A stretch of DNA of 30,758 bases, from positions 1 to 30,758 of the IMG/VR virus record IMGVR_UViG_3300025769_000530; one strand, 5' to 3'. A program made the position numbers and the translations under genes. This document shows positions 3,596 through 24,958 of this stretch, in pieces (the first letter of the stretch is position 1; each line of letters opens with the position of its first letter). Under the pieces are notes generated by a model that was given only the letters and a program-made list of their open reading frames with translations, ran no database searches and was not told the origin of the DNA. Source of the DNA: a virus.

Positions 3596-3778
3596 ATGGA
3601 TAGTTCAATGACAATTTTATCGGCACAATATATAGCAATAGATAATGTAAATGATACAGTTAAAGCCACTATAGACGGACAAGAGCTATCAGTCCCACTA
3701 GACCCAGCCAACAGACACTACGCAGAGATACTACGCCAAGTAGAAGCTGGCACACTAACCATTGCAGATGCTGACTGA
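3596..3778 (+). CDS. Small tail-region protein, unknown function
   Basis: 60 residues beginning two bases after the fibre gene stop. GGAG lies about 8 nt before the ATG at 3596; a second in-frame ATG at 3608 (MTILSAQY) is an alternative start. The protein consists of a short beta part (ILSAQYIAIDNVNDTVKATI, DGQELSVPLD) and a helical part (ANRHYAEILRQVEAGTLTI). The last pattern, N-R-H-Y-A-E-I-L-R-Q-V-E-x-G-x-L-T-I, recurs in small proteins beside phage tail-fibre genes, but I know no proven function. The TGATG overlap with the next gene suggests translational coupling. Confidence 0.65.
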   Translation: MDSSMTILSAQYIAIDNVNDTVKATIDGQELSVPLDPANRHYAEILRQVEAGTLTIADAD

Positions 3779-4125
3779 TGTTAGGTTTTTCCCCACTAGC
3801 TGACAACTCTATCGCGGGGTTTGACACGCTAAACTCTACGGTGACGGGAGTTCAAGCTACTGGTGCCGTGGGAACAGTAAGCGTTGACACAGAAATATCT
3901 GTAACAGGCGTTCAAGCCACAAGCGCGGTTGGAACGGTCAGCGTTTCTGCAGAAATATCTGTAACAGGCGTTCAAGCCACGGGCCTTATTACGAAGGCAC
4001 TTGTTTGGGGACAGATTACACCTTCTCAGTCTTCAAGTTTTTCTGCGATTACACCTTCTCAGTCTTCAAGTTTTTCTGCGATTACACCTTCTCAGTCTCC
4101 AAGCTGGGAGGATATCGCTGCGTAG
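3778..4125 (+). CDS. Repeat-containing tail/adhesin protein
   Basis: 115 residues, start codon overlapping the previous stop (TGATG). The protein is almost wholly made of two sets of tandem repeats: a 20-residue unit, VTGVQAT-AVGTVSV---IS (two and a partial copy), and an 11-residue unit, ITPSQSSSFSA (three copies, the last changed to ITPSQSPSWED). Both repeat types are familiar from tail proteins of marine phages, the second in forms such as W--I-PSQ-P-W. Such repeats would give a thin extended beta structure. Because the DNA copies are nearly identical, copy number may change easily between close relatives. No catalytic motif is present. Confidence 0.7.
   Translation: MLGFSPLADNSIAGFDTLNSTVTGVQATGAVGTVSVDTEISVTGVQATSAVGTVSVSAEISVTGVQATGLITKALVWGQITPSQSSSFSAITPSQSSSFSAITPSQSPSWEDIAA
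3841..3980 (+). repeat. 60-bp tandem repeat within the adhesin gene
   Basis: Units begin exactly at 3841, 3901 and 3961, and the third is partial. The part running from agaaatatct across the unit boundary into gtaacaggcg ttcaagccac is identical at the second and third boundaries. Each unit encodes 20 residues (VTGVQAT-AVGTVSV---IS), so unit gain or loss keeps the frame. Confidence 0.9.
4015..4113 (+). repeat. 33-bp tandem repeat within the adhesin gene
   Basis: The copies at 4015-4047 and 4048-4080 are identical. The copy at 4081-4113 is identical for its first 18 bases and then diverges. Each encodes 11 residues, ITPSQSSSFSA. The exact identity of the first two copies points to recent duplication or ongoing homogenisation. 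Confidence 0.9.
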
Positions 4126-17812: not shown

Positions 17813-19714
17813 TTACCCTACCTCTCCCCAGTTACTACCCAACTCCTCATCCACCTTGGATGGTACTTTCAGAACGTCATCAAGACCGTGCTCCATGATC
17901 TCGGTAATGCGTGACGCTTGCTTCTGATCCTGTACCGAAAAGCACAGTTCGTCATGCACCGTGAGCGAAGGAACCAAGCCCTCGTTATAGCAATCCAACA
18001 TCGCTCGTTTGGTTTGGTCGGCGGCTGATCCTTGGATCAACTTGTTAAGTGCCTTGTATGTAAACGCCCTGCGCAAGTTCATGCCGTGCTTTTTCTGCGC
18101 ATCCTCTAACGGGAGCGGCTTCTCATACCCGTAGGTGCGAGGCTCCCATAAATGGAAGCGGCACCGCCTACCAAGCAACGTGCGTATCGAACCGTGCTTG
18201 GATGCCTGTACCGTTGCCAGTTCCGCAAGCCCCTTAACAAAAGGCACCTTCGAATGGTGCGTGGACAGCAATGCCTTGGCCTCGTCCGGCGTGATCGACA
18301 ACTGAGCCGCCAGCTTTGCAACTCCCATGCCATACATGATCCCAAGGTTCACGGTCTTGGCTTGCTTTCGGGTAATCCCCGCGAAGTCTGCCACCATCTG
18401 GTGTAGATCGACATCGCCTGAGTGGTACTCTTTGACAATCTGATCCACCATGTCATGCCTATGCACACCCGACACGCTTGCCGCAAAGTGAACCAAGAGC
18501 CTTGGCTCCTGACTGGCGTAGTCAAACGAACCCCACTGGCACCCGTCCTCCGGAATGAACAGCCCACGAATGAGCTTCTTGATGTCCGGATCACGCGCAG
18601 GGATTTGCTGCAGGTTCGGGTTTGAGGACGAGAACCTTCCGGTTACAGTGCCTCCGTCATCGCTCCGTAGCTGGTGGAACTCGCAGTGTATGCGTCCCTT
18701 GTGACTGTGCCGCTGTATGGTTTCAATGAACGTACCGTCTGCCTTGTCAAACTCGCGCAGCTTAACGATAGCCTGAGCCACTTCGTTCGGGTGAGAGGAC
18801 AGATACTGTTTGGTGAAGGACGGGGCACCAGCTTCCGTATTTGGATACGATAGGTCCAAAGCCTCAAAGACTTTCTTTACTGACTCTGCAGCCCACGGTT
18901 CTATCTGCACCCCGCTCTTGTGTTTGATGAACTCCTTGAGCGTCTTGACCTGTTTGCGTAGCCCGTTCCTAGCTTGATCCGCCTTGTCCAGATCAACGCG
19001 CACCCCGTTCTTACGCATCTCCAACATCAAAGGTATGAGGCCCGTTTCGAGATCAAAGATTGCGCCCAAGTCTTGTTCGCTGATCTCTATCTTGAGCCGA
19101 TGCCAAAGCTTCAGCGTCATGATTGCGTCCTGCTCCGCGTATGCACCAACGTACATCGGAGGCAGACGCCACATCTCTGACTTGGGATCAAAGCCAAAGT
19201 CCTTTGCTGCAGCGCGTAACATCTTCTCGTTCTTACGCATGTCAATCCAGTCACGACCCAGATTGTTTAGGCTATATGAAAACCTGTTCTCGTCTATCAA
19301 AGGAGCAGCAACCATCGTGTCGATGATCCGACCCTGCACCTCTATGCCCTCCGCGTGTAGCCACCCTGCATCATAGGTTGCATTGTGCATGATCTTATCA
19401 ATCCGAGGTGTAGCCATCTGCTTTTTGAACCAGCGCAGCGTGACCTTCGGATCAAGATTGTGTCCGTTCTGGTGCCGGATAGGAAAGTACCCAGAGTAAT
19501 CCCCCGCTGCTACCGCAATGCCCACAATATTTCCGTCACCCCTAGCCCATCCGGGGCCAAGGGTGGTGAGGTTCGGGTCTCTCGTCTCAAGGTCCACGGC
19601 TATTTCTTTGTAGCCCGTCAGGTCGGGCAACTCGAAAGGGATATTCCAATCGGGATCAAAGTTATCCATTTCCATGCGCTCAATGAAACTAATCGTCTTA
19701 TCTTTTTTCGCCAT
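17813..19714 (-). CDS. polA: Family A DNA polymerase with proofreading exonuclease domain
   Basis: 633 residues. The 3'-5' exonuclease domain (about 35-210) shows all DEDD motifs: VDLE (D41, E43), HNATYD (N111, D115) and YAEQD (Y192, D196). The polymerase domain follows, with TGRFSSSNPNLQQIP (358-372), motif A DYASQEPR (D398), motif B RKQAKTVNLGIMYG (R449, K453, Y461) and motif C VHDE (D588). There is no 5'-3' nuclease domain, as usual for phage enzymes. The residue at the place of E. coli Phe762 is Leu457; in virioplankton studies this Leu form has been tied to slower or temperate phages. It copies the phage genome. Its start overlaps the DUF6378 gene by 17 bp, so it is the last gene of the replication operon. 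Confidence 0.95.
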   Translation of the reverse strand: MAKKDKTISFIERMEMDNFDPDWNIPFELPDLTGYKEIAVDLETRDPNLTTLGPGWARGDGNIVGIAVAAGDYSGYFPIRHQNGHNLDPKVTLRWFKKQMATPRIDKIMHNATYDAGWLHAEGIEVQGRIIDTMVAAPLIDENRFSYSLNNLGRDWIDMRKNEKMLRAAAKDFGFDPKSEMWRLPPMYVGAYAEQDAIMTLKLWHRLKIEISEQDLGAIFDLETGLIPLMLEMRKNGVRVDLDKADQARNGLRKQVKTLKEFIKHKSGVQIEPWAAESVKKVFEALDLSYPNTEAGAPSFTKQYLSSHPNEVAQAIVKLREFDKADGTFIETIQRHSHKGRIHCEFHQLRSDDGGTVTGRFSSSNPNLQQIPARDPDIKKLIRGLFIPEDGCQWGSFDYASQEPRLLVHFAASVSGVHRHDMVDQIVKEYHSGDVDLHQMVADFAGITRKQAKTVNLGIMYGMGVAKLAAQLSITPDEAKALLSTHHSKVPFVKGLAELATVQASKHGSIRTLLGRRCRFHLWEPRTYGYEKPLPLEDAQKKHGMNLRRAFTYKALNKLIQGSAADQTKRAMLDCYNEGLVPSLTVHDELCFSVQDQKQASRITEIMEHGLDDVLKVPSKVDEELGSNWGEVG

Positions 19715-20003
19715 TTGATAAACCTATTTCTGCGCCCAGTGCGCTGTAACCTGCCTTGTCCACCCACGAGTCTTGATGTGACGTGTCATTGAGCAGCCGT
19801 GTTGTTTTCAACCAGTCCATCATCAACGCTACATGCGCGGGAGTAATAGGGGCAAACTTCCCGTTCTGTTTAATTGCCCTAGAAACAATGACGTTCCACC
19901 CATCTGCAATGGCCCTGAACGATTGTGTTGCATCCCCGTAGTCCTCTTGCCTGTCACCAGATATCAGAGACTTGGCTTTGTCTAGCACCTCATCTCTTTT
20001 CAT
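19698..20003 (-). CDS. DUF6378-type phage protein
   Basis: 101 residues. The sequence follows the DUF6378 pattern: LISGDRQEDYGDATQSFRAI, a middle ITPAHVALMMDWLKTTRLL and the end DSWVDKAGYSALGAE. Such proteins are common in phages and prophages, often next to nucleotide or DNA metabolism genes, but I know no demonstrated activity. The mostly helical fold with conserved Asp, Tyr, His and Trp residues would suit a nucleotide-pyrophosphatase-like (all-alpha) enzyme; this is speculation. The gene begins inside the end of the helicase gene (ATGA) and overlaps the polymerase start, so all three are likely translated together. Confidence 0.8.
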   Translation of the reverse strand: MKRDEVLDKAKSLISGDRQEDYGDATQSFRAIADGWNVIVSRAIKQNGKFAPITPAHVALMMDWLKTTRLLNDTSHQDSWVDKAGYSALGAEIGLSNGEKR

Positions 20004-21529
20004 AGCATGTACCTGTACCGTTTGTCTGATTCCAAAATGTGCAGGTTCTCTTTGGTCCTAGTCACCGCAACATAGAACACCCGATGCTCCGCGTCTGGGT
20101 TCTTGGACTCCTCACACGCCTTCGTTGAACCCAAATACACCATGCAGTTCTCGTCCTCCCCACCCTTCATCGCGTGGATGGTTGAGATTTTAATACGAGG
20201 TGTATCAGAGATGTTCTCCCCCCGTGCCTCAAGCGACTCTATGTATAGCCTGTCCTCGTTACCAAGGTTCATTACGTCCGTAGCCGGACGATTTAGCGGA
20301 GCAACCATGCCAAACTCTGATACAAGATCATCGTAAGAAAGCATCGCGTCATCCGCTGCAGCATCCAACAAACCAACCGCTCCCCGCTTGACCACCCGAT
20401 AGTCCCCCATCTTCGGGACGTTCTTGTATAGGTCCCTGATCCTCGCAAGACCAACACGCTCCCCATCTTGCAGCTTCCGCCATACGTCTAGGCCATCGGC
20501 AACCGCTTCGCTTACGCTCCCCCGTCCTCGAAAACTATACAGGTATCCATACGCTCGAACCTGCTTTGCCAACTCCCAAGCATAGGAATTAGTACGAGCC
20601 ATCAAGGTCCACGAACCTTTCCACAAGGGCACCGTCTCAATGTTTACATGGTATCTAATGGAGCCTTCTCTGTCCGTTGGCTCGAACTCTTTCACAATGC
20701 GGTTATCTATCCGCTTTACAATCATCTGAGACAGATTGTGAACAGCCTGCGGCATCCTGTAGGACTGGCTCAATACAATCCTTTTGTCTGAGCAACTTAG
20801 GAAGTCTTCTACCTTTACGCCCGTCCACTCATGGATAGCCTGATCGTCATCCCCTGCAATGATAGTTCGCTTGGCATCCTCCGACATCTTCGCAACCATC
20901 TGCCACTGTGACGGCGTTAAATCTTGGGCCTCGTCCACAATCAACAGGTCTAGCTCCGGAGGATTAACAATCTCCACATACCGTGAAATAAAATCCCCGA
21001 AATCTAGCTTTGCTTCCTGCGTCTTGTACTTAGTCAGCGTGGCTTCCACATTCACCAGCTTGGAAAATGCTAGGCCATAATTTCCCGAGTCGTTGAACTC
21101 CTCTTCAAGAGAGAGCAAGCGAGACCGCGCTCGGTCGATTATGTTTAGGTACTGAGCACCTGACCCCGACAGTGTTGTCTTGATTAACCCGTCCGCTGCA
21201 TCAACCCCGTCTCTCGCCAGTAGGTCAAGACGTAGGAGACCTGACAGCTTTCTGTAATCATCAGCCCCCATAACATCGGAGGACTGTAGCCCAAGACCGT
21301 GGAACGCCGTGGCATGCAACGTCCTGCAGTGCGGCAACTCTTTTGGCTTGAGACTAAACTTCAGACAAGCCCGTTCCATAGCCTCCTGAATGGACTTGCG
21401 AGTAAATGAAACAAACGCAAATCTGTGAGGCGCACCGCCCTCCTCAAAGTAATCGTTCACCCGCTCCATCAACGTGTGTGTTTTCCCAGTTCCGGGCGGT
21501 CCCAGTATCAGTTCACTATTCGTAATCAT
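20000..21529 (-). CDS. UvrD/Rep-like superfamily 1 DNA helicase
   Basis: 509 residues with the full SF1A motif series: Walker A GPPGTGKT (10-17), motif II VDEAQD (198-203), motif III GDDDQAI (226-232), motif IV SQSYRMP (254-260), motif V ISTIHAMKGGEDEN (448-461) and motif VI YVAVTRTKENL (486-496). It is shorter than host UvrD/Rep (about 700 residues), lacking most of the 1B and 2B insertions, which is usual for phage members. It should translocate 3'-5' on single-stranded DNA and unwind duplex DNA during replication or recombination. The start overlaps the HTH gene by 14 bp and the end overlaps the DUF6378 gene by 4 bp. The fold and class are secure; the exact job is inferred. Confidence 0.9.
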   Translation of the reverse strand: MITNSELILGPPGTGKTHTLMERVNDYFEEGGAPHRFAFVSFTRKSIQEAMERACLKFSLKPKELPHCRTLHATAFHGLGLQSSDVMGADDYRKLSGLLRLDLLARDGVDAADGLIKTTLSGSGAQYLNIIDRARSRLLSLEEEFNDSGNYGLAFSKLVNVEATLTKYKTQEAKLDFGDFISRYVEIVNPPELDLLIVDEAQDLTPSQWQMVAKMSEDAKRTIIAGDDDQAIHEWTGVKVEDFLSCSDKRIVLSQSYRMPQAVHNLSQMIVKRIDNRIVKEFEPTDREGSIRYHVNIETVPLWKGSWTLMARTNSYAWELAKQVRAYGYLYSFRGRGSVSEAVADGLDVWRKLQDGERVGLARIRDLYKNVPKMGDYRVVKRGAVGLLDAAADDAMLSYDDLVSEFGMVAPLNRPATDVMNLGNEDRLYIESLEARGENISDTPRIKISTIHAMKGGEDENCMVYLGSTKACEESKNPDAEHRVFYVAVTRTKENLHILESDKRYRYML

Positions 21530-21734
21530 CTTCCCTAGCCCTTTCGTTTACCCATTGTTCCACTTCGCTCAGAACCCAACGCTTGGTCTGTCGCTGCTTG
21601 GGTTTCATCGGTCCAAGCATTATGGGCCGTGGAAATTGGCCCTGTTTCACCCACTTGTAGAGCGTTGAGGTCGATACTCCCAAAAGCTTTGCGACCTCGG
21701 ACACCCTTAACAAACGGTTAGAAGGGGATGTCAT
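21516..21734 (-). CDS. AlpA/excisionase-like helix-turn-helix protein
   Basis: 72 residues. LLRVSEVAKLLGVSTSTLYK (8-27), followed by WVKQGQFPRPIMLGP, is the winged helix-turn-helix seen in AlpA, Xis and MerR-type small DNA-binding proteins. The end, TKRWVLSEVEQWV, is the typical closing helix. Such proteins regulate transcription or bend DNA in excision. The gene overlaps the primase gene (17 bp) and the helicase gene (14 bp), so it is made together with the replication proteins. With no integrase in view, a regulatory or replication-initiation role is as likely as excision. Confidence 0.85.
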   Translation of the reverse strand: MTSPSNRLLRVSEVAKLLGVSTSTLYKWVKQGQFPRPIMLGPMKPKQRQTKRWVLSEVEQWVNERAREDDYE

Positions 21735-23247
21735 TTGGAATCTCCTTTACATCTAGTTCTACATCCGTTTCCTCGAACGCAGGCACACGCCATACACGCG
21801 CCGTTGTTCTCTTCCCGTCAGCCTTGCGATAGTTCAGGACATACTCGGCGTCCTTGCCCCCGTTCAGCTTCTTTAATGCTTCCGTAACCTCGGCTCTTGT
21901 GTACTGATTGAAGTTACGATTATGCAAATAATCCATGAGACCCGAGATCATGAACGAGGTAAACCCGCCCTCGGTCCACGGCTTTCCATGCGTTATTTCC
22001 TCTGCCTGCACAGCCCGTATCCTACTGGTGCAGTACATGCGTAGGTGATCTTTAAACTGGCCTGAGTAGGTCAGTTCTTCTGGCACCTCTATTCGTGTGG
22101 AGTTTGTCATGAGCGCAGAGATAAGCATCTGCCACCTTGCTGGACGCATGGTAGGAGGCATAACACTTAGCTGATCCATACATGCCCGTTGAAACAGCGT
22201 CTGGTTTTGTAACTGCTCCGTTGATAGCTGCACCCGCCGCCCTGTAACGTCCAAGAAGTGTAGCCTTGGCTCCGACAACATGGTCACAAGACCGCCTAGC
22301 TTGGGCGCATCCGGTACGTCATCACCCACACCGTACTTTCTGGTGCGGCATACGTCCGGATCACAGTAGCTTTTGATAGGCTCTTGCTTACAGGTGTAGA
22401 AATAATCCTTCTTGCCCACCGATTTCTGCAGCGCAGATATCTCAGAGGCCGGAAGTGGAGAGGCCGTAAGGTTTCGGTTCATCTCTTCTAGTTTCTCAAC
22501 CCAATCATCCGCCCACTTCTTACGGCAGTACACGCCACAGTTGAACAGCGTTGAGTTTCTATCACTTGAGATTGCACCCTGCGAACAGATGTGTTGTAGG
22601 CATGGCGGTCCATCAAAGAACTCTTCCTTGCCCCCAAGTCTTAAAGCTTCCAGATCATCTAGCGTGGTCTCGGACTTCTCCGCATGATCCAGAAAATCAT
22701 CCAACTCTAACGCCTCGACGTTGCTATCAAAGCAGTATCGAAGCGTCTCCTCCGCCTTGAAGTACGGTAGGTTAATAAAGTTACCCACGTCTCCCTGATC
22801 TGATAATATTGTGTCCTGCTTGGGGAAAATCTCTGAACCTGAGAACCCCAAAGCAATAGACATCTCGGTCAGGAACTCTCGAACCACCGCCGCCGACTCT
22901 TTCTGATTAAGAAACAGGTAGAGGTGCGCTCCACCAGACTTAGAACGGCAGTGAGACAACGGGAACTTTAACTGCGTAATCTTTTGCTGCAGTTGCTTGT
23001 GATCCAGATCGTAAACATCAATGTCAATGCACCCAAAACGGCAGGCATTCTCCTCGTCTATCGGTATGGACCCAACACCTAACGATCCATCCAAATGTTT
23101 TTGCATAGCCTCCTCGGTCAGAGGATCACGCACAATCCAACTGTCGGCTTCCGTTTTACCGTTCCGGCCCACACGTTTTATTTTTGTAGAGCCATACGCT
23201 ACCCGCGAACCAGCGAAGATAGCCAGCATCCTACTAGCTTGTGTCAT
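21718..23247 (-). CDS. Archaeo-eukaryotic primase (TOTE-type AEP)
   Basis: 509 residues. The N-terminal half has the AEP catalytic motifs: GCIDIDVYDL (D75, D77, metal ligands), SKSGGAHLYLF (S104, H108, nucleotide binding) and GNFINLPYF (155-163). This pattern matches the primase domain seen in TOTE conflict systems and many phages. Cysteines at C216/C221 and C286/C295/C300 (YTCKQEPIKSYCDPDVC) may bind zinc. The last 150 residues look like a winged-helix end (FTSFMISGLMDYLHN, YTRAEVTEALKKL). The protein ends in EIPNDIPF, much like the acidic tail of SSB. It should make primers for the polymerase encoded three genes downstream. Confidence 0.85.
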   Translation of the reverse strand: MTQASRMLAIFAGSRVAYGSTKIKRVGRNGKTEADSWIVRDPLTEEAMQKHLDGSLGVGSIPIDEENACRFGCIDIDVYDLDHKQLQQKITQLKFPLSHCRSKSGGAHLYLFLNQKESAAVVREFLTEMSIALGFSGSEIFPKQDTILSDQGDVGNFINLPYFKAEETLRYCFDSNVEALELDDFLDHAEKSETTLDDLEALRLGGKEEFFDGPPCLQHICSQGAISSDRNSTLFNCGVYCRKKWADDWVEKLEEMNRNLTASPLPASEISALQKSVGKKDYFYTCKQEPIKSYCDPDVCRTRKYGVGDDVPDAPKLGGLVTMLSEPRLHFLDVTGRRVQLSTEQLQNQTLFQRACMDQLSVMPPTMRPARWQMLISALMTNSTRIEVPEELTYSGQFKDHLRMYCTSRIRAVQAEEITHGKPWTEGGFTSFMISGLMDYLHNRNFNQYTRAEVTEALKKLNGGKDAEYVLNYRKADGKRTTARVWRVPAFEETDVELDVKEIPNDIPF

Positions 23248-23268
23248 TACAATAATCCCTGAGAAAGT

Positions 23269-23308
23269 GGGGGGAGCCTCGCAGTGCGAAACCTGACCCG
23301 CGCCCCCC
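23269..23308. other. GC-rich hairpin between ssDNA-binding and primase genes
   Basis: In the 70-bp gap 23248-23317, GGGGGG (23269-23274) faces CCCCCC (23303-23308), extended inward by one mismatch and two further pairs. The loop is about 22 nt. No T-run follows on the minus strand, so it is a poor intrinsic terminator. It could modulate expression of the primase relative to the gene upstream, or protect the upstream messenger end. Confidence 0.4.
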
Positions 23309-23317
23309 TAAAGCAGA

Positions 23318-24112
23318 TTAGAACGGGATTTCGTCATTCCGTTCTGCAGAGGCTGGCTTGGAGGTTTCAACCTCTGGTGCTGCTTTAACCTCACCCGCTG
23401 CAACCGACTGCCTAAACAGCATGGCTTCTTGCAACTGGTCTTTCTCTTTAACCAACCCGACCTTTTCAATAGCCCAGTTGTTCCATGTACCCTGATCGTT
23501 ACTCTCCTCAACAGATCGGAGACGCCAGATCGTGGCAAAGACCGCAGGAGTAACCATCGCACCCGACTTAGGATGCTTAACTTTCTGCATGGCGATCTGT
23601 GTTTTCCAACGGCGGCTTACTTTAAGGGCAGTAGATTTCATATCTACTACCGCAGGTTGATAAGAACCGTCTTCCTCAACAATCAACACAAAGTGTTGGT
23701 CTGATTTCACCAGTTCATTGCCGTTGGGTAACATTTCCTTGGACCCTGACCGTGTTGTCTTGGTCAGTACAGGATCAGTGGCGGCAATCTCTCCTTTGAA
23801 CCCGCCGCCCAAGTCACGCGGCACGAACTCTAGGTATTTGGTACACTGATAGCAGGGGATAACCTGTATACCTTTCTCGCCTTCCCATATCTGAAATGTC
23901 ACATTGTTAAACGCATCACCCTGCTGAGAGCCTTCAATGTACTCAGCGTTGCGCTTGTTTAACTGTGGAGACATAGCCTGAAGCAACCGTACAAACGGTA
24001 TCTGCATCTCGCTACTGTCAAACGATGCACCTTCCCCCGCTGTGGCAAAGATATCGTCCATTACGTCTGTGCTTAACTCTGCACTTTTTTTATTTGCTAC
24101 CGCGTTACCCAT
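23318..24112 (-). CDS. Putative phage single-stranded-DNA-binding protein
   Basis: 264 residues from the ATG at 24112 (MGNAVANKKS); a TTG at 24127 is possible, but the G-run at 24121-24125 is best placed to act as the ribosome binding site of the ATG. The body has beta strands typical of an OB-like domain (FQIWEGEKGIQVIPCYQCTK, HFVLIVEEDGSYQPAVVDMK, AVFATIWRLRSVE). The C-terminus is Glu/Ser/Ala-rich and ends in ERNDEIPF, almost the DDDIPF tail of bacterial SSB. I recall similar phage proteins annotated as ssDNA-binding. It sits directly upstream of the primase. The role is inferred from tail, size and context. Confidence 0.65.
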   Translation of the reverse strand: MGNAVANKKSAELSTDVMDDIFATAGEGASFDSSEMQIPFVRLLQAMSPQLNKRNAEYIEGSQQGDAFNNVTFQIWEGEKGIQVIPCYQCTKYLEFVPRDLGGGFKGEIAATDPVLTKTTRSGSKEMLPNGNELVKSDQHFVLIVEEDGSYQPAVVDMKSTALKVSRRWKTQIAMQKVKHPKSGAMVTPAVFATIWRLRSVEESNDQGTWNNWAIEKVGLVKEKDQLQEAMLFRQSVAAGEVKAAPEVETSKPASAERNDEIPF

Positions 24113-24398
24113 TTTTATGTCCCCCAAGAATAGATTTAATCAAAGAGATGCGATCCTTCGCCATGTTCTTCGCAACCTTCATACCTATCATCCTATTGTA
24201 TAAAGCTCTTTGATGCCCTTTTAGATCAGCCTCCAGTTCCAAAAGAGTTTGAAGCTCTTCGTCAATCTGTCTCTCAATCAACTGATCTTCCATGCACTCT
24301 TCGAAATCTGTCTCGTCATTGTCCATGAAGCCACCATACTCATCAGTGTGGTCTTCATCATCCATCTCTTCCAACATTTTATTCTTATACGCACCCAT
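24105..24398 (-). CDS. Small acidic coiled-coil protein
   Basis: 97 residues, overlapping both neighbours (8 bp with the ssDNA-binding gene, 1 bp at its start with the gene upstream). Residues 9-40 are very acidic (EEMDDEDHTDEYGGF and following), and residues 40-65 form an amphipathic helix (LIERQIDEELQTLLELEADL). The C-terminal third is basic (MKVAKNMAKDRISLIKSILG). An acidic head with a basic tail could mimic or contact nucleic acid-binding proteins, but there is no recognised family. Its tight coupling to the ssDNA-binding gene suggests a replication-linked role. Confidence 0.6.
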   Translation of the reverse strand: MGAYKNKMLEEMDDEDHTDEYGGFMDNDETDFEECMEDQLIERQIDEELQTLLELEADLKGHQRALYNRMIGMKVAKNMAKDRISLIKSILGGHKNG

Positions 24399-24958
24399 TA
24401 TACTTTCCTCCGGATTTCTGCCGCGTTTGCGATGAATGCCCCAAACATGTCGAGGTCGATAGGCTTCCCGTCCGTCACACGCTCTTTGATAAACGCTTTC
24501 AACGTAGAGGGATGAACGTGGGTCTTGGTATTCGGTTCGAAACCACGGTCACTTAGGATGCCAACAACATCTTTCGCCATGTTGTCTTGCCCCTTACCGA
24601 AGGTGCAGATCACATCGTTCTTTATAATGTCATCTAGCCCCTGCTCCCGAAGCCAAGAGAAAGCTTCTTCTCTCCGAGATACTGGGATACTGGCATGCAC
24701 CATCATCTTTCGCTGCACAGTCAAGCCGTCTACATCAAGACGCTCAACGCCCATCTCATCCATGAGTGATGGTATTTGTTCGACCGATAGCTTGTGCTTC
24801 TCAGCCTTCAATGCTTTCAAGTGCGCCTCGGCATCGACCATCTGGTCTTCGATCCCGCGCATTGTACGCACTAGATCACTGAGGTTTTTCCCAGTGCTTG
24901 TATCAACTCCAGCCAACGCTTGGCCTTCGTCAAACATATCGTCAAAAATATCGTTCAT
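24398..24958 (-). CDS. Conserved phage protein of unknown function, first gene of the replication operon
   Basis: 186 residues, with GAGGA 8-9 nt before its ATG. The first 60 residues are helical and contain a heptad-like segment (DQMVDAEAHLKALKAEKHKL). A conserved-looking core follows: QIPSLMDEMGVERLDVDGL (61-79), VHASIPVSRREEAFSWLREQ (87-106), GLDDIIKN and VHPSTLKAFIKERV (148-161). I recognise this series (IP-LM-E-G, ASIP--RREEAF-WLRE-G, P-TLKA-I-ERV) from proteins of T7-like and marine podoviruses, always of unknown function. Being first in the replication operon, it may be an early regulator or replication accessory factor. Confidence 0.65.
   Translation of the reverse strand: MNDIFDDMFDEGQALAGVDTSTGKNLSDLVRTMRGIEDQMVDAEAHLKALKAEKHKLSVEQIPSLMDEMGVERLDVDGLTVQRKMMVHASIPVSRREEAFSWLREQGLDDIIKNDVICTFGKGQDNMAKDVVGILSDRGFEPNTKTHVHPSTLKAFIKERVTDGKPIDLDMFGAFIANAAEIRRKV

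Follow-up and report, generated by a model that had tools for sequence, protein, structure and literature searches.

A Phage Primase and the Adjacent Single-Stranded DNA-Binding Candidate End in the Same SSB-Like Tip, a Possible Shared Docking Peptide

The window analyzed here is a whole stretch of 30,758 nucleotides of phage DNA (IMG/VR record IMGVR_UViG_3300025769_000530), in which a primase gene lies next to a gene for a candidate single-stranded DNA (ssDNA)-binding protein (SSB). We found that the primase ends in VKEIPNDIPF and the SSB candidate in SAERNDEIPF, so that both window proteins carry a tip of the bacterial SSB C-terminal (SSB-Ct) type, in which acidic residues are followed by I-P-F at the very end of a flexible tail. 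A reading of the window made from its sequence alone had claimed that both proteins end in an SSB-like acidic IPF tail, and the exact C termini, read again, are as it stated. The tip is shared between the two proteins lineage by lineage. We tentatively propose, with a little less than even confidence, that the two tips are one docking peptide borne by two phage replisome proteins, an arrangement that would combine a shared tail of the phage T7 kind, the tip of bacterial SSB, and an unrelated primase. The features concerned are as follows.

21718..23247, minus strand: primase (509 amino acids), with an archaeo-eukaryotic primase (AEP)-TOTE/Prim-Pol domain at about residues 1 to 204, a weak PriCT-1 match C-terminally, a winged-helix-like end, and a flexible tail
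21721..21780, minus strand: flexible C-terminal tail of the primase (residues 490 to 509, tip NDIPF), with a low predicted local distance difference test score (pLDDT), no secondary structure, and a conserved end
23318..24112, minus strand: ssDNA-binding protein candidate of the Pam3 gp34 family (PF23977; 264 amino acids from the ATG at 24112), probably with a gp32-like oligonucleotide/oligosaccharide-binding (OB) fold
23321..23395, minus strand: flexible C-terminal tail of the SSB candidate (residues 240 to 264, tip NDEIPF), with low pLDDT and a conserved end

In AlphaFold2 models of the two proteins (mean pLDDT of 88 for the primase and 85 for the SSB candidate), an ordered core is followed by some 20 to 25 flexible residues and an acidic-[IV]-P-F tip in both cases, which speaks for a common docking peptide. 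Secondary structure ends at residue 489 of the primase, and residues 491 to 509 have a pLDDT of 57 to 59; in the SSB candidate, residues 241 to 264 have a pLDDT of 42 to 56 and are without secondary structure. The combination of low pLDDT and absent secondary structure over the last 20 to 25 residues of both models suggests that the tails are flexible.

To assess the conservation of the tips, a check that the sequence-only reading had proposed, we scanned IMG/VR with each protein singly and took the closest relatives (the best 80 of 295 primase loci and the best 80 of 415 SSB loci). The tail proved to be kept in close homologues of both proteins, so that the first refuting outcome named by that reading, absence of the tail from close primase homologues, did not occur. 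Among the distinct C termini from the pooled IMG/VR loci, an [IV]PF end was present in 81 of 82 primases (48 to 100% identity; the exception is locus L136), eight loci with an incomplete primase 3′ end having been excluded from the count, and an IPF end was present in 87 of 88 SSB relatives, the exception (L007) being apparently frameshifted. Another choice of distinct rows gave an [IV]PF end in 74 of 75 clade primases.

As a control for chance, we examined the other distinct open reading frames (ORFs) of at least 80 amino acids in the phage loci, the window excluded. Only 4 of 11,694 ended in [DENQST][DE][IV]PF, and all four were small proteins related by BLAST to the annotated SSBs of Vibrio phage K227 and Klebsiella phage K21lambda1. 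A first control, covering 7,884 other ORFs of at least 50 amino acids, had found five that ended in [ILVM]PF, one of which (DKKRDDEIPF, from a 56-amino-acid ORF at the edge of a contig) appears to be a piece of this same SSB. The conserved tail is thus not due to chance. Among homologues of four other window proteins, none of 451 UvrD-like helicases, 285 family A polymerases (PolA), 271 SNF2-type helicases, and 368 gp33-like proteins had a PF end; an aromatic end of any kind was found in 6 of the UvrD and 7 of the SNF2 homologues and in no PolA or gp33-like homologue.

The codons of the primase tip also take part in the start of the next gene:

21516..21734, minus strand: small gene that by eye resembles a helix-turn-helix gene; its opening codons are shared, in a different frame, with those of the primase tail

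It could therefore be argued that the tip is a by-product of this overlap, kept only because the same codons begin the downstream gene. The overlap is indeed common: of 74 distinct clade primases, 70 have the start codon of the next gene 17 bases ahead of where their own stop codon ends. It could also account for the last primase codon being TTC in all 74. However, the proline codon of the tip varies freely (CCA in 28, CCC in 24, CCT in 11, and CCG in 11) while always encoding proline, and the Ile/Val position uses seven codons, whereas the protein in the overlapping frame changes, with S (48), Y (18), or F (4) at residue 3 and P (24), H (26), L (10), or R (10) at residue 4. Synonymous change in the primase frame accompanied by amino acid change in the other frame implies that the tip is kept for the sake of the primase. 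Furthermore, the four primases that lack a start codon at the overlap position all end in VPF; two of these (L096 and L095) have another start nearby in the same frame, and in the other two (L092 and L115) no ORF of at least 45 amino acids has a start that overlaps the primase gene. The SSB tip, for its part, is conserved even though the next gene starts 70 bases downstream in the window. The codon pattern and the overlap-free L092 and L115 largely contradict the idea that the primase tip exists because of the overlap, and we rejected this very improbable explanation. The primase tip thus appears to be selected as protein, the overlap-free sample being two.

The primase itself was identified from its profile matches, its catalytic residues, and its predicted fold. 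Its AEP domain matched PF22548 (E value of 3.5e-16; 59.9 bits versus a cutoff of 27), and the protein matched phrog_21866, annotated as "primase" (E value of 3e-91); the PriCT_1 match (E value of 0.0035) fell below the family cutoff. The model aligned with the CAPP Prim-Pol of Marinitoga (7nqf) over 186 residues (Z score of 20.9; root mean square deviation of 2.6), and a search of solved structures by sequence also returned a weak CAPP match. D75, D77, S104, G105, G106, and H108 were invariant across 46 aligned primase sequences; we take D75 and D77 to be the catalytic DxD motif and S104 and H108 to belong to an SxxxH-type motif. By these three lines of evidence, the protein fits the AEP/Prim-Pol group (TOTE type) and is predicted to synthesize primers. 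Its C-terminal end, judged from the secondary structure of the model, is winged-helix-like. It has the AEP catalytic domain in common with the CAPP/TOTE-type primases and differs from them in what the phage family has in addition, namely a C-terminal half containing four invariant cysteines, and the tail. These cysteines (C216, C286, C295, and C300, invariant in the 46 sequences) come after the AEP domain and before the C-terminal part and suggest a zinc or iron-sulfur module there.

For the SSB candidate, the sole profile match above cutoff was PF23977 (Pam3_Gp34; E value of 9e-65), and the protein belongs to PHROG 2402, a family with no assigned function. The bacterial SSB profile PF00436 did not match it up to an E value of 1, Foldseek returned no match to its model at an E value of ≤0.001, and a search of solved structures by sequence gave nothing useful. 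In VIA-align, the model resembled the cores of T4 and RB69 gp32 (Z scores of 6.5 to 6.6 over 151 to 158 residues) and a BRCA2 structure (Z score of 6.9). The top neighbor was the phiC31 integrase-recombination directionality factor (RDF) fusion, chain 9teh_I (Z score of 8.8 over 151 residues), and the phiC31 RDF and the Pam3 gp34-like SSB family may share a fold. Because VIA-align Z scores of about 6.5 to 8.8 can reflect only a common arrangement, an OB-type ssDNA-binding role is likely rather than proven, and we regard the protein as a probable OB-type, gp32-like ssDNA-binding protein.

The sequence-only reading had held that one such tail on an SSB is expected and a second on the primase is not. 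Phage T7 already has such a pair: read directly, its ssDNA-binding protein gp2.5 ends in ADEDGDF and its primase-helicase gp4 in SNDTDF, with D-x-D-F in common. Since both T7 tails are acidic and Phe ended, there is a precedent for a primase that bears the second such tail of a phage. The tails of gp2.5 and gp4 compete for one site on the T7 polymerase, gp5. The terminal Phe of gp2.5 is reportedly essential for strand displacement. Three papers (PMC8472574, PMC8835902, and PMC12593628) describe the binding of the gp4 C-terminal tails to positively charged patches on gp5 and a lowered processivity or coupled synthesis when the gp4 tails are removed. The window phage is like T7 in that its SSB candidate and primase both carry aromatic-ended acidic tails and in that the polymerase belongs to family A. 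It is unlike T7 in that the primase of T7 forms one protein with a hexameric helicase, whereas the window primase is a separate AEP Prim-Pol, and in that the T7 tails are long and acidic with only D-x-D-F in common, whereas the window tips are short and have the IPF consensus.

That the two proteins compete for a single site, on either the polymerase or the helicase, was among the options listed by the sequence-only reading and is in our view the best reading. Both tips would bind the same pocket of a replication protein encoded by the phage; the likeliest is the family A polymerase, followed by the UvrD-like helicase. The SSB tail would hold this shared partner on SSB-coated ssDNA, and the primase tail, in competition with it, would bring in the primase, placing the synthesis of primers side by side with their hand-over to the polymerase. 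This would be the gp2.5/gp4-to-gp5 logic of T7 built from unrelated proteins. Across clades, the candidate phage receptors are the polymerase, the UvrD-like helicase, the SNF2-type helicase (encoded on the plus strand of the window), and the gp33-like protein. Those on the minus strand are as follows.

17813..19714, minus strand: family A DNA polymerase with 3′-5′ exonuclease (PF00476, E value of 6e-59; PF01612, E value of 4e-15), candidate tail receptor
20000..21529, minus strand: UvrD-like helicase (PF00580, E value of 3e-24), candidate tail receptor
24398..24958, minus strand: Pam3 gp33-like protein (DUF7307; PF23984, E value of 2e-27), one gene from the SSB candidate and a possible partner

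In the order of transcription, the minus strand encodes the Pam3 gp33-like protein, a 97-amino-acid protein, the SSB candidate, the primase, the product of the small gene, the UvrD-like helicase, a DUF6378 protein, and the family A polymerase. A PF00476 polymerase was present in 18 of 20 comparison phage records, and the remaining two had Pol III alpha. Across the six larger clades of the survey described below, the share of loci with a UvrD-like helicase homologue lay between 59 of 67 and 65 of 65; for gp33-like homologues it lay between 33 of 67 and 56 of 58, many loci being short. Membership in a defense system was considered with PADLOC and rejected: it gave Prim-Pol and helicase matches of a general kind for the primase, the UvrD-like helicase, and the SNF2-type helicase, and no match of any kind for the SSB candidate.

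We then compared the paired tips more widely, using as further queries the primases of DSL-LC04, ct3Et533, 023Pt_psg01, HTVC027P, and HTVC023P and naming each clade by its nearest query; four further records (PSA28, PMBT28, Kokobel2, and Barton) were also included. Both proteins were found in 474 of 558 surveyed loci. In the window clade, 131 of 133 pairs had [IV]PF on both proteins. The 80 pairs of the DSL-LC04 clade were Phe ended on both proteins without exception, the primase ending in SPF in 76 and the SSB in PF in 71, and all 65 pairs of the HTVC027P clade had an IV end on both proteins.

Several results of the survey, concerning the tips themselves and their covariation, weigh against a shared docking peptide. 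Throughout the 023Pt_psg01 clade (67 of 67 pairs), the two tips differ, the primase having an EENF-like, Phe-ended tip and the SSB an STPY-like tip ending in PY. The ct3Et533 clade has 58 pairs, of which 44 were aromatic ended on both proteins and only 1 had [IV]PF on both. None of the 64 primases of the HTVC023P clade was Phe ended, although the SSB ended in PF in all; similarly, the three Nanhaivirus records (3 of 3) had no primase tip, and their SSB candidate ended in E[IV]PF. The absence of the tip from the HTVC023P and Nanhaivirus primases while the SSB ends in PF implies that the second tail is dispensable. Moreover, similar ends occur sporadically on other proteins of these phages, with 1 of the 271 SNF2 homologues ending in EDVPY and 3 of the 451 UvrD homologues having an acidic-Phe end. 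Independent-pair sign tests for covariation of the tips had a median P value of 1, with too few informative pairs, and within-clade shuffles reached the observed tip similarity 764, 1,146, 402, and 2,668 times per 5,000. The match between clades rests on very few independent events, and the IV change is one.

These tests used a tree of 95 primases, selected with an 85% identity threshold out of 418 of the 474 pairs; short rows had been dropped, and the HTVC027P clade was reduced to two rows. With one extra residue allowed, 69 of the 95 pairs were aromatic ended on both proteins; in 6 pairs, only the primase had such an end, in 16, only the SSB did, and in 4, neither protein did. Over all rows, the similarity of cognate tips exceeded that of the shuffles (0 of 5,000 reached it), an excess that relatedness alone can give, and within clades it did not clearly exceed that of the shuffles. 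Residue-by-residue coevolution is thus not shown, and we rejected fine tip-by-tip coevolution, which found no support within clades or on independent branches and left only the agreement between clades.

A proposal that restricts the primase tip to phages whose polymerase is of family A was unusable because the tipless Nanhaivirus and HTVC023P records also have PF00476. A scan with the Nanhaivirus primase found one locus only. The HTVC023P clade primases have KF[RK]T within their last six residues in 59 of 64 cases. In HTVC023P and in Nanhaivirus R5C (L160 and L159), whose primases are tipless, the UvrD-like helicase gene begins directly within the end of the primase gene, with overlaps of 35 and 14 bases, respectively. 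In ct3Et533 (L152), both proteins have one residue beyond their aromatic tip (PPPFV and KDIPFA), and in its relative L254, the extra residue is on the SSB only (DVPFA).

The same differences among clades bear on whether the receptor belongs to the host or to the phage. The sequence-only reading had suggested that the tails recruit host SSB partners or displace host SSB from them, and such mimicry of the bacterial SSB tip by both proteins agrees well with the window clade, whose tip lies near the bacterial consensus DDDIPF (PMC5872125). This agreement makes a host receptor possible in the window clade. HTVC027P and HTVC023P were recorded from a single host strain, HTCC1062 (Pelagibacter), and their SSB candidates end in DIV and VPF, respectively. 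We looked at SSBs of the host group, SAR11, in 20 genomes obtained from 16S-probe matches (15 with an SSB match; HTCC1062 was outside this sample) and found that 14 of 15 ended in DD[DE]IPF and 1 in DDPPF. These SSBs resemble the window-clade tip, and a small SSB-like gene of some phages also ends in DD[DG]IPF. The HTVC027P lineage, in contrast, has IV on both proteins; its tips agree with each other and differ from the host-group SSB, which favors a phage-encoded receptor. Assuming that the hosts of its relatives are SAR11, the comparison points to a phage-encoded receptor for this lineage, and here the suggestion of host partners is weakened. Docking on host partners is also difficult to reconcile with the different SSB tips of two phages from one host strain, with tips such as SPF, STPY, EENF, and SEF that are unlike the host tip, and with the fact that these phages encode their own polymerase and helicases. 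On balance, we consider it unlikely.

A broader form of the phage-receptor idea is that one phage receptor reads a lineage-specific C-terminal word (IPF, SPF, DIV, and others) on the SSB and the AEP primase. This word would have drifted away from the host tip in some lineages, separating the replication traffic of the phage from that of its host. The primase, for its part, would have changed from a reader of the tip, like Escherichia coli DnaG, to a bearer of it. In this extended form, the idea is doubtful.

Acidic tails have been proposed to mimic ssDNA in T7 gp2.5 and other SSBs, and the tips could in that manner serve self- or cross-regulation, the primase tip binding the DNA groove of the SSB and loading the primase onto coated DNA. 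The resemblance of the SSB model to OB-fold ssDNA-binding proteins would suit this mechanism, as would position −4 of the primase tip, which is always Asp or Glu. A charge mimic needs no fixed Pro-Phe end, however, yet Pro-Phe was invariant in 74 of 74 primases while position −5 varied among N, D, Y, and S. We consider regulation of this kind improbable.

Compared with known SSB tails, the window tips have the sequence of the bacterial SSB-Ct (DDDIPF) and, on the SSB candidate, the same place at the end of a tail predicted to be disordered. PMC6783573 reports binding of E. coli DnaG and chi to the SSB C terminus; unlike DnaG, which binds the tip, the window primase itself bears one, and unlike bacterial SSB, the window SSB candidate gives no match to the bacterial SSB profile. 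T4 gp32 has a core that the model of the candidate resembles at the modest Z scores given above, and its C terminus recruits Dda, a superfamily 1 helicase, according to PMC11551737. The literature search, which was of limited coverage and hence gives a weak negative, found no primase with an SSB-like tip; within that literature, an AEP Prim-Pol that bears the bacterial IPF tip and is encoded next to a gp32-like protein ending likewise appears to be without a match.

If the two tips are indeed one docking peptide, the shared-tail arrangement of T7 would extend to an unrelated and widespread module made up of an AEP primase, a gp32-like protein, a UvrD-like helicase, and a family A polymerase. 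Phages may then quite generally solve primer hand-over by tail competition. The tips that differ by lineage, including those of two phages of one host strain, make the question of host versus phage partners testable with short peptides.

Some phages carry the tip elsewhere. In PSA28, PMBT28, and K21lambda1, the primase ends in SEF, an SSB-like gene elsewhere ends in DDDIPF, and the gp34 homologue ends in Met. Six phages (L154, L155, L168, L169, L172, and L696) have an extra small SSB-like gene ending in DD[DG]IPF, and their gp34 homologues end in NDM, TEM, AEM, DEM, EFA, and EDM, as if the tip had moved from the gp34 homologue to the small SSB-like protein.

Two further genes of the window lie apart from the replication module. 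Positions 30758-29895 (minus strand) encode a protein with a zincin-like FHELVHWTGH motif that, from its sequence, resembles ArdC-type antirestriction proteins. Positions 3778-4125 (plus strand) encode a small protein built from repeats, with three copies of VTGVQAT and two of ITPSQSSSFSA plus a third, variant copy.

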